A stretch of DNA of 64,000 bases from Salegentibacter salegens (lineage in GTDB: Bacteria; Bacteroidota; Bacteroidia; Flavobacteriales; Flavobacteriaceae): contig NZ_LT670848.1 in assembly GCF_900142975.1 (NCBI RefSeq), positions 2,480,001-2,544,000 of the forward strand. The letters are read 5' to 3'. Below, piece after piece: positions 52,152-55,126 of this stretch. Position numbers and translations under genes: made by a program. Under the pieces are notes generated by a model, which was given only the letters and a program-made list of their open reading frames with translations, was not told where the DNA came from and did not search any database. Positions within the stretch are counted from its first letter, which is position 1. Each line of letters opens with the position of its first letter.

Positions 52152-54050
52152 ATGAGTGACGCCTTAAAACACGAATGTGGAATTGCCCAAATACGATTGT
52201 TAAAACCCCTGGAATACTATAAAGAAAAATATGGTACCGCCTTTTATGGGATTAACAAAATGTATCTAATGATGGAAAAACAGCATAACCGCGGCCAGGA
52301 TGGCGCCGGTTTTGCCAACATTAAATTAAATACAGCTCCCGGAGATCGCTATATAAGCCGAATAAGATCTAATGCGGCGCAACCCATCCAGGATATATTT
52401 GAGCAGATAAATGGTAGAATCAACGACGAGATTAAAGCCAACCCTGAATATGCCGATAATGTTTCGCTTCAGAAGAAAAACCTTCCTTATGTAGGGGAAG
52501 TTTACCTTGGGCACGTTCGCTATGGCACTTTTGGCAAAAACAGCATAGAAAGTGTACACCCATTTCTTCGGCAAAATAACTGGATGCACCGTAATCTTAT
52601 TGTGGCAGGGAATTTTAATATGACCAATGTAAACCAGCTTTTTAATAACCTGGTAGAATTAGGTCAACATCCAAAAGAAAAAGCCGACACCGTTACGGTA
52701 ATGGAAAAAATTGGGCACTTTTTAGATTCTGAGGTGCAAAAGCTTTACAAGAAATTAAAAAAAGAGGGATATTCTAAAGTTTCTGCTTCGCCAATAATTG
52801 CAGAAAAACTAAACGTTGCTAAAATTCTTAGAAAATCGTCTAAAAACTGGGATGGTGGTTATGCCATGGCCGGTTTACTGGGGCACGGCGATTCTTTCGT
52901 ACTGCGTGATCCTGCGGGCATACGGCCTGCTTATTATTACAAAGATGATGAAGTGGTAGTTATAGCTTCAGAAAGACCGGTAATTCAAACCGCTTTTAAT
53001 GTAGATTTTGATGAAGTACATGAGCTTCCGCCAGGACACGCCATTATCACCAAAAAAAGCGGAGAGGTAAATATTACCCAAATCCTGGAACCTCTGGAAC
53101 GAAAAGCCTGCTCGTTTGAGCGTATTTATTTTTCCCGTGGAAGCGATGCCGAAATCTATAAAGAACGAAAAATGCTTGGGCGTTTATTGATGCCTGAAGT
53201 CCTGAAATCTATAGAGCACGATACCATAAATACGGTTTTCTCGTTTATTCCAAATACTGCGGAAACCAGTTTCTACGGAATGGTTGAAGCGGCTCAGGAT
53301 GAACTGAATAAACAGAAAAACGACGCGATTCTTGCTGAAAAAGATACGTTAACTGATGCACGACTAAAGGAAATTTTAGCTCACCGTTTACGCACCGAGA
53401 AAATTGCGATCAAAGATGTAAAGCTTAGAACCTTTATTACCGAAGACAGCAGCAGGGACGACCTTGTAGCCCATGTTTATGATGTGACCTACGGGGTGGT
53501 TAAACCAGAAGATAGCCTGGTAATTATAGATGACAGTATTGTTAGGGGAACCACGTTAAAGAAAAGCATCATTAAAATGATGGACAGGTTAAACCCAAAA
53601 CAAATTGTGGTAGTCTCTTCTGCACCGCAAATTCGTTATCCCGATTGCTACGGGATTGATATGGCGCGCCTGGAAGGTCTCGTTGCTTTTAGGGCAGCGC
53701 TGGAGCTTTTAAAAGATAACAACCAATACGATATTGTAGAAAAGGTTTACGACAAATGTAAATTACAGGTAGATCTCGCCGATGTGGATGTAAAGAATTT
53801 CGTAAAAGAAATCTACGAACCTTTTACCAATGAGCAAATTTCAGATAAAATTTCAGAACTACTTTGTGATACCGATGTAAAAGCTAAAGTAAAAGTGATT
53901 TACCAAACGGTAGATAATTTGCATACCGCCTGTCCTAAGAACCTGGGTGACTGGTATTTCACAGGCAATTATCCCACATTTGGTGGTAACCGGGTAGTGA
54001 ATAGAGCTTTTATTAATTTTTACGAAGGAAACGAAGGGAGAGCCTACTAA
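52152..54050 (+). CDS. Amidophosphoribosyltransferase-like protein (long PurF form)
   Basis: A 632-residue protein with an N-terminal class II glutamine amidotransferase domain, whose catalytic cysteine is Cys9 after a short propeptide (MSDALKHE), and a C-terminal phosphoribosyltransferase domain with the PRPP loop VIIDDSIVRGTTLKKS. This is the first step of purine synthesis: PRPP and glutamine to phosphoribosylamine. It is over 100 residues longer than classical PurF, with insertions in both halves and an additional C-terminal region, as in the long form of many Bacteroidota. It may coexist with a standard PurF elsewhere. Confidence 0.88.
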   Translation: MSDALKHECGIAQIRLLKPLEYYKEKYGTAFYGINKMYLMMEKQHNRGQDGAGFANIKLNTAPGDRYISRIRSNAAQPIQDIFEQINGRINDEIKANPEYADNVSLQKKNLPYVGEVYLGHVRYGTFGKNSIESVHPFLRQNNWMHRNLIVAGNFNMTNVNQLFNNLVELGQHPKEKADTVTVMEKIGHFLDSEVQKLYKKLKKEGYSKVSASPIIAEKLNVAKILRKSSKNWDGGYAMAGLLGHGDSFVLRDPAGIRPAYYYKDDEVVVIASERPVIQTAFNVDFDEVHELPPGHAIITKKSGEVNITQILEPLERKACSFERIYFSRGSDAEIYKERKMLGRLLMPEVLKSIEHDTINTVFSFIPNTAETSFYGMVEAAQDELNKQKNDAILAEKDTLTDARLKEILAHRLRTEKIAIKDVKLRTFITEDSSRDDLVAHVYDVTYGVVKPEDSLVIIDDSIVRGTTLKKSIIKMMDRLNPKQIVVVSSAPQIRYPDCYGIDMARLEGLVAFRAALELLKDNNQYDIVEKVYDKCKLQVDLADVDVKNFVKEIYEPFTNEQISDKISELLCDTDVKAKVKVIYQTVDNLHTACPKNLGDWYFTGNYPTFGGNRVVNRAFINFYEGNEGRAY

Positions 54051-54125
54051 GTGCACTTTAACAAGTTTTTCTGCCGTTCGTCTAAAATGATTTTTTAGAG
54101 GATTAAGATTATATACATTAGCAGA

Positions 54126-54201
54126 ACCATAAACATAAGTAGGTTAAGTTCATGGTAGATTTGGGGCAAAAAAAGGTGGATCTAAAAATCCGCCTTTTTT
54201 T
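54126..54201 (+). ncRNA. Putative small RNA, copy 1 of a tandem pair
   Basis: About 76 bases starting ACCATAAACATAAG, with a 5' stem ACCAT/ATGGT and an intrinsic terminator GGTGGAT-CTAAAA-ATCCGCC followed by Ts. A nearly identical copy lies 245 bp downstream at 54371-54445. TACATTAG upstream could be a weak -7 box. The interval 54051-54517 has no plausible protein gene. Duplication and terminator support a transcribed RNA. Confidence 0.65.
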
Positions 54202-54370
54202 ATTTTTACCCGATTTTGAAATTCTTCAGAAATAAACAATTCCCACAGCCAACAAATCTAAAAACCCAATTTTTCTTACATTAAATATTGAATTTCAATA
54301 CTTTAACAGGTAATTACGCCGTTAATCTAAAAAATTTGCGAGCAAGATTTATTCAACATACTTTAGACTC

Positions 54371-54445
54371 ACCATAACATAAGTAGGTTAAGTTCATGGT
54401 AGATTTGGGGCAAAAAAAGGTGGATCTAAAAATCCGCCTTTTTTT
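54371..54445 (+). ncRNA. Putative small RNA, copy 2 of a tandem pair
   Basis: About 75 bases nearly identical to 54126-54201; the main difference is one A missing in the loop of the 5' hairpin. TTG at 54336-54338, then 20 bases, then TACTTTAG at 54359-54366 closely resembles a flavobacterial promoter. The 70 bases upstream are about 60 percent identical to those before copy 1, without gaps. It ends in the same terminator hairpin and T run. Confidence 0.68.
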
Positions 54446-54464
54446 ATTTAACATTCTTGCAAAA

Positions 54465-54491
54465 AAAAGACCGCTCAAATGGCGGTCTTTT
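54465..54491 (-). terminator. Terminator of the superoxide dismutase gene
   Basis: AAAAGACCGC pairs with GCGGTCTTTT, with A and T runs on both sides, just beyond the superoxide dismutase stop codon. It could also serve transcripts from the plus strand. Confidence 0.85.
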
Positions 54492-54517
54492 TAATATATT
54501 GAATAATAACTTAGTTA

Positions 54518-55126
54518 TTATTTCTGCTTTGCATATCTGCTTCCTACTTCTTTCCAGTCTATTACATTAAAAAATGCATCTATATAATCTGGTCTACGGT
54601 TTTGATAGTTTAGGTAATAAGCATGTTCCCAAACATCAAGCCCTAAAATAGGAGTTCCTCCACAGCCAATTCCAGGCATTAATGGATTATCCTGATTTGC
54701 TGTAGAGCAAATCTCTACTTTTCCACCTTCGTGAACACAAAGCCAGGCCCATCCAGAACCAAACTGTCCCGCAGCTGCTTTAGAAAATTCATCTTTAAAA
54801 GCTTCAAAAGAACCAAATGCGGTATCAATTGCTTTTGCAAGTTCACCTTCTGGTTTTCCGCCACCATCTGGAGACATCACTTCCCAAAATAATCTATGGT
54901 TATAAAATCCGCCACCGTTATTTCTTACAGCGGTATTAGATTTATCAAGATTTTCAAGGATATTCTCAATGGTTTTTCCATCAAGATCGGTGCCTTCTAT
55001 TGCAGCGTTTAATTTTTTAGTGTAACCTGCGTGGTGTTTTCCATGGTGAATTTCCATGGTCTTCGCATCTATATGTGGTTGTAATGCATCAAATGCATAT
55101 TTTAACTTTGGTAACTCAAAAGCCAT
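54518..55126 (-). CDS. Superoxide dismutase (Fe/Mn family)
   Basis: A 202-residue dismutase converting superoxide to hydrogen peroxide and oxygen. Metal ligands lie in [11 protein letters not shown], the histidine of FYNHRLFW, and DVWEHAYY with both aspartate and histidine. The sequences GGGFYNH and TANQDNP are features of the Mn-type or cambialistic enzymes rather than strict Fe-enzymes, but metal choice is an inference. No signal peptide is present, so it is cytoplasmic. It is divergent from the RecB-like gene. Confidence 0.96.

Follow-up and report, generated by a model that had tools for sequence, protein, structure and literature searches.

In Salegentibacter salegens, the gap between a purF-like gene and sodA contains two near-identical units of about 75 bases (Table 1), which had been put forward from the sequence alone as a tandem pair of small RNAs (sRNAs); the stretch analysed, referred to here as the window, comprises 64,000 nucleotides of contig NZ_LT670848.1 (positions 2,480,001 to 2,544,000). 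The two units are real and conserved: 74 of 74 bases are the same from 54132 and 54376, 244 bp apart, and the predicted 5' ends of the copies are separated by the 245 bp originally given. Both units carry the ACCAT/ATGGT 5' stem and a terminator hairpin (a simple terminator scan reports only the first), and the regions upstream are akin yet diverged, as had been noted (79% over 33 nt). No shared reading frame lies behind the conservation, since the spacing after ATGGT varies between copies (GGTAGATTT / GGTAAGATTT), as does the A-run. Two parts of the original prediction needed amendment. Of the proposed unpaired core AAGTAGGTTAAGTTC, AGTAGG does lie in a loop, but AAC pairs with GTT inside the hairpin, a pairing that becomes GAC/GTC or AGC/GTT in other copies; and while the window does hold two copies, a 'pair' is too few for a family with one to six copies per genomic stretch. 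The S. salegens genome contains no further good match, the next-best one having an E-value of 0.0036 over 23 bases.

A BLAST search with copy 1 against 60 genomes (E 1e-8 or better) found the RNA throughout the genus (15 of 15 genomes) and in 30 of 37 Flavobacteriaceae genomes, which rules out a recent duplication in a single strain and supports the small-RNA reading. A covariance model, for which 51 of 56 non-redundant copies were used (five with longer 3' ends were left out), was run on two overlapping samples and was positive for 40 of 296 genomes in that of the order and for 26 of 296 in that of the phylum, every positive genome belonging to the Flavobacteriaceae; under the stricter filters of these large searches, which lose weak matches, at least 10 Flavobacteriaceae genomes of the order sample gave no match to the model. 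Scanning the genomes of named species with a core pattern recovered at least 118 stretches with copies, the genera among the matches listed being Salegentibacter, Zobellia, Maribacter, Aquimarina, Winogradskyella, Kordia, Flavobacterium, Cellulophaga and Robiginitalea, and the viral contigs contained no exact match to this pattern. The resulting set of 304 copies (225 from the pattern scan and 79 from earlier loci) was gathered with core-sequence patterns, so the conservation of its core is partly by construction; a model-derived set of 81 copies is fairer, though the model itself was built from the pattern set. Among the 4227 families of Rfam 15 none matched the window at gathering, and Flavo-1, the family suggested for checking, appeared neither at gathering nor among the weak matches listed. 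The papers searched, including the covered text of PMC9723704, gave no account of the family; because the supplementary sRNA table of that paper lay outside the search coverage, the RNA may already have been detected in F. psychrophilum. Within the reach of these searches the family is apparently undescribed, and a new set of the 'sibling sRNAs' kind.

Table 1 Features of the purF-like/sodA gap and its neighbours (window coordinates)
Feature	Position	Strand	Remarks
sRNA copy 1, type A, predicted 76 nt	54126..54201	+	5' hairpin, unpaired AGATTTGGGG tail, terminator; 5' end from -7 box
sRNA copy 2, type A, predicted 75 nt	54371..54445	+	5' end from -7 box
-7 box of copy 1	54114..54121	+	TACATTAG
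-7 box of copy 2	54359..54366	+	TACTTTAG
Direct repeat upstream of copy 1	54057..54087	+	TTTAAC / TTCGTC, 20 bp apart; contains CCGTTCGTC
Direct repeat upstream of copy 2	54302..54332	+	TTTAAC / TTAATC, 20 bp apart
Intrinsic terminator hairpin, copy 1	54168..54201	+	
Terminator hairpin, copy 2	54412..54445	+	
purF-like gene, 632 aa, upstream neighbour	52152..54050	+	Pfam: glutamine amidotransferase domain
sodA, Fe/Mn superoxide dismutase, convergent downstream neighbour	54518..55126	-	

The genomic setting is kept together with the RNA. Of the at least 118 stretches (to which the counts of synteny, copy number and sub-type refer, that is, among the matches listed), 114 adjoin a purF-like and/or a sodA gene, with both in 80, the purF-like gene only in 21, sodA only in 13 and neither in four, two of which (L069, L122) have the copy at the stretch edge. 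Copies by the purF-like gene lie on its strand and within 1.5 kb downstream in 218 of 219 cases, the last one being further downstream, and all 208 copies by sodA run opposite to that gene. These conserved neighbours, together with the presence of only two strong copies in its own genome, speak against a general terminator repeat found beside unrelated genes, with the limit that some other genomes carry extra isolated copies. Such copies, away from the cluster, were seen in L019, L038, L040-L043, L045, L047 and L048; those of L019 and L040-L043, from Salegentibacter relatives, have an upstream stretch of their own in common (CTACAAA..AAGAAGGCATT..GGGCT.AAAG), as if they had been dispersed by duplication. 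The name purF is taken over from the original prediction; Pfam shows a glutamine amidotransferase domain. Between copy 2 and sodA there is a further hairpin, GACCGC/GCGGTC (54461-54494), whose flanking A-run and T-run suggest that termination could occur in both directions.

Copy number varies, with one copy in 54 stretches, two in 27, three in 20, four in 11, five in five and six in one, at a median spacing of 207 bp (171 spacings, 30 model-derived loci added). The bases after GATTTGGG define three sub-types: A (GGGGC), B (GGGGA) and C (GGGACG). In the 64 stretches with two or more copies the order is A-A in 23, A-B-C in 13, A-B-B-C in 11 and A-B-B-B-C in four, the rest having other orders; many clusters are thus of the form A-B(n)-C, and type C, where found, is always last and adjoins sodA. 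Type C copies share an upstream stretch, CaCAATACCAGTAaTTTAGT; between -35 and -13 their mean information is 1.44 bits, whereas that of A is 0.2 and that of B 0.3. In 38 type C upstream regions, among them L063:3345, L068:1979 and L147:3992, the shared sequence is TTTTATTTc.CaCAATACCAGTAaTTTAGT, unlike A and B. From these differences the type C promoters are likely to be under a separate regulator. Recent tandem growth can be seen in one genome, with five copies about 242 bp apart (G309:C4:179088-180128), and in L011 a partial sRNA fused to the promoter repeat precedes the third copy.

Aligned on the predicted start, 258 of the 304 copies have TAnnTT at -12 and 227 have TAnnTTnG at -12 to -5, with T at -8 in 303; a TAnnTTn[GA] box is present in all 81 model-derived copies. 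A sigma-A box, TAnnTTTG, has been mapped at the equivalent position in F. psychrophilum, according to the covered part of PMC9723704. We placed the 5' end at [AG]CCAT because of the position of this sigma-A-type -7 box. A promoter of the extracytoplasmic function (ECF) type, suggested by AAC..CGTCTA, was set aside because the sigma-A-type box stands at a fixed distance from the RNA.

The RNA is laid out as a 5' hairpin with an AGUAGG loop, an unpaired G-rich (GGGG) tail and a terminator hairpin. Both units fold more stably than dinucleotide shuffles (z -4.1 and -4.6), a signal that comes mostly from the terminator, the 45-nt 5' part alone giving z -1.2. Across 51 sequences the proposed structure leaves 95.0% of cells paired, against a shuffled mean of 89.4, and 94 cells have changes on both sides, against a shuffled mean of 31.3; none of 500 shuffles was as high in either measure, and slid versions of the structure were only 28-52% paired. 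Covariation lies mostly in the terminator, with little in the 5' hairpin, where 98.8% of cells pair and, of 11 pairs, five are invariant, three vary on one side and one on both. One pair of the inner TAA/TTA helix is lost in 28 of the 81 model-derived sequences, which have TTA in place of TAA. Taken together, the pairing and these mismatches suggest that the outer hairpin is well kept, that the inner helix is doubtful and that the letters themselves are constrained.

Several near-identical genes, each with a promoter and a terminator, are characteristic of sibling sRNAs, and this is the arrangement found here. We consider it moderately likely that the units encode sibling regulatory RNAs of about 75 nt in the Flavobacteriaceae, whose promoters are raised by a LytTR-type regulator and which act in trans on several mRNAs. 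Each unit would be transcribed from a sigma-A-type promoter of its own and ended by its own intrinsic terminator, and transcription would most likely be raised by a response regulator of the LytTR type that binds a direct repeat at -69/-49. RNAs of this sort act by default through base pairing in trans, and the AGUAGG loop and unpaired (A)GAUUUGGGG tail would most likely pair with several mRNAs. More copies would give a higher dosage, and the unlike promoters of type C and types A and B may let different signals yield nearly one RNA. The distribution, conserved neighbours, -7 box and structure described above count in favour of this reading. The sequence itself shows the family with its synteny, the promoter box, the terminator, the outer hairpin and the repeat, while transcription, LytTR control and action in trans are inferred.

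The case for LytTR control begins with a pair of half-sites, TT[TCA][AG][ACT]C at -69/-49, a pattern that was devised after the sequences had been inspected. Of 303 unique upstream regions 161 contain the pair, compared with 0.3% of shuffled regions; in 144 of these the starts of the half-sites lie 20 bp apart, and the pair also occurs in 48 of the 81 model-derived copies. A strict dual motif is present in its own genome twice on the forward strand, both times at these units, and not on the reverse (reversed control, one and one). LytTR promoters have a direct repeat close upstream, its 9-bp half-sites separated by 11-13 bp, and this layout is seen in about half of the copies and in no type C copy. 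The AlgR core site is given as CCGTTCGTC in the covered text of PMC4064291, and spacing and place of the repeat agree with LytTR direct-repeat promoters as described in that of PMC6193735. Relative to the promoters treated in those parts of the two papers, the likeness consists of CCGTTCGTC upstream of copy 1 and half-sites 20 bp apart close to the promoter, and the difference is that many copies here have diverged half-sites, the sites being putative. Among eight LytTR-domain matches in the S. salegens genome, only at the LytTR gene adjoining the ribosomal protein S6 gene (L183) does the intergenic sequence ahead of the regulator contain such a repeat. Its orthologues have the repeat pair in 18 of 30 cases (330 bases each), 16 of them at nearly one position, against 59 of 1000 random windows of its own genome, and eight of 14 orthologues within the genus have it. 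The sRNA and the regulator occur together in 28 Flavobacteriaceae genomes, the sRNA only in two, the regulator only in two and neither in five (Fisher p 0.0009, in a test that ignores relatedness).

Several points weigh against the favoured reading, in addition to the retrospective pattern and the treatment of relatedness in the Fisher test. The half-site pair is missing in 142 of the 303 upstream regions, including all 39 of type C, and 12 of the 30 LytTR orthologues are without the repeat pair (L313, read in the wrong frame, was counted as a miss). The LytTR domain encoded in the S. salegens genome ends at profile position 68 of 98, with a Mutator-family transposase gene close behind it, and the strain may therefore have no functional copy. 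With regard to targets, none was found: in-register pairing of the tail with start codons was no better than that of seed shuffles among 362 genes (400 kb plus the window), with 187 of 500 shuffles as good for the maximum, 380 for the top 5, 333 for the top 15 and 83 for the mean. A genome pattern search gave 30 forward and 21 reverse matches (two being the sRNA genes), barely above the control (20 and 21), and of 19 inspected among those 51 matches one (L277) has its matched ATG at the head of a long frame and few open codons ahead of it. When pairing with start regions is left free, the average beats shuffles (0 of 60 as good), whereas the best gene does not (29 of 60); internal windows also pair better than shuffles (1 of 80 as good), the antisense strand does not (20 of 80), and starts were not preferred over internal windows, 25 of 80 shuffles being at least as good. 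That the RNA pairs with sense mRNA windows better than shuffles do counts in favour of the reading. The link between LytTR and the sRNA, which is a correlation only, is attractive but unproven.

The truncated LytTR gene lies at L183:1063-3012 (G000:C1 about 985,830-987,780), with orthologues in L298-L326 and relatives of intact length elsewhere in the genus; a second LytTR fragment (L181) adjoins a copy of that Mutator-family transposase. Individual target candidates were also set aside. SusC/TonB-receptor starts (27 of 30 loci usable) outdid sampled genes in pairing (0 of 100 shuffles), though they did not outdo signal-peptide-like genes (14 of 100), and the purF-like and sodA starts ranked 73 and 221 of 362. 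For a lipoprotein candidate (L252:18631) pairing was judged by eye to be kept in four of seven start regions (eight loci matched), one start being doubtful. Pairing with start codons as a general mechanism is unsupported by the register test.

With the target tests negative, protein sequestration remains a serious rival, if a rather unlikely one: the near-invariant hairpin and GGGG tail would bind and titrate an RNA-binding protein, with copy number as capacity. The many copies held by clusters would suit such a role, as would a hairpin whose letters are kept while compensatory changes are rare; yet the RNA is short, with a single such site, and the S. salegens genome contains nothing that matches RRM_1, to which the FopS partner RbpB belongs. 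More tentatively still, the purF-like/sodA gap may be an ordered regulatory array of A, amplified B and C, in which LytTR-driven promoters (A, B) and the other conserved promoter (C) make almost one RNA and bring two signals together in a single sRNA pool, and a segment shared with FopS may mark the family as a branch of an sRNA theme found across the Bacteroidota, whether through descent or through convergence. That the units are instead cis elements, serving as terminators or insulators between the convergent genes, their conserved 5' part being transcribed only within the 3' untranslated region of the purF-like gene, would accord with their place and conserved neighbours. We regard this as improbable, as the terminator stem varies and the 5' part is conserved, the opposite of what insulation needs, the promoter box stands at a fixed distance in nearly all copies, the hairpin at 54461-54494 with its T-run already adjoins sodA, and some isolated copies have neither neighbour. 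Membership in FopS (RF04319), with the UUCAUGGU/AGAUUU segment as a seed for translation starts, is rejected by score and very improbable: although its model aligns UUCAUGGU and AGAUUU in the same segment order and both RNAs are multi-copy with a terminator, the match reaches 19.3 bits (18.8 in another search) against a gathering score of 56 (E 0.27) and is not significant, since that search ranks two enterobacterial families, STnc370 and sraA, slightly above it. The model finds none of 148 phylum genomes above cut-off and PF00076 (RRM_1) is without a match in the S. salegens genome (Bacteroides controls positive for both); the start-codon tests were negative. The one sub-threshold FopS match, in another family of the order (L186:1501-1569, 43.9 bits), includes a segment that could pair with a possible translation start, with a terminator-like hairpin after it, and is probably due to chance.

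Regulation by sRNAs in the Flavobacteriaceae is little explored, and under the favoured reading of sibling RNAs acting in trans a syntenic, near-invariant and widely kept sRNA with a candidate response regulator would offer one deletable locus, a first handle on the sRNA networks of the phylum outside Bacteroides. If expressed, the family belongs in Rfam. Of the known systems, FopS comprises 14 paralogous sRNAs of Bacteroides thetaiotaomicron and, in the covered text of PMC11697453, resembles the present family in its multi-copy paralogues, similar length, sigma-A-type promoters and intrinsic terminator, with a similar UUCAUGGU..AGAUUU segment in a weak, non-significant alignment. FopS genes are, however, described there as spread over the genome, whereas the Flavobacteriaceae copies are clustered and syntenic, and the FopS 5' stretch (the R1 seed) is single-stranded where there is a 5' hairpin here; in that weak alignment half of the letters similar to the R1 seed lie in the 3' arm of the hairpin. 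Rfp18 and the other Rfp sRNAs of Flavobacterium psychrophilum come from the same bacterial family, and one of them could be the RNA studied here; the covered part of PMC9723704 gives Rfp18 a third stem-loop, which serves for pairing, against two hairpins here. LhrC, the Cia-dependent small RNAs (csRNAs), Qrr and OmrA/B, which are named in the covered part of PMC11697453, are alike in being sets of near-identical sRNA genes, some under a response regulator. No sequence kinship with them is seen, the weak csRNA match (29.4 bits against 57) falling in another part of the window (54413-54492).
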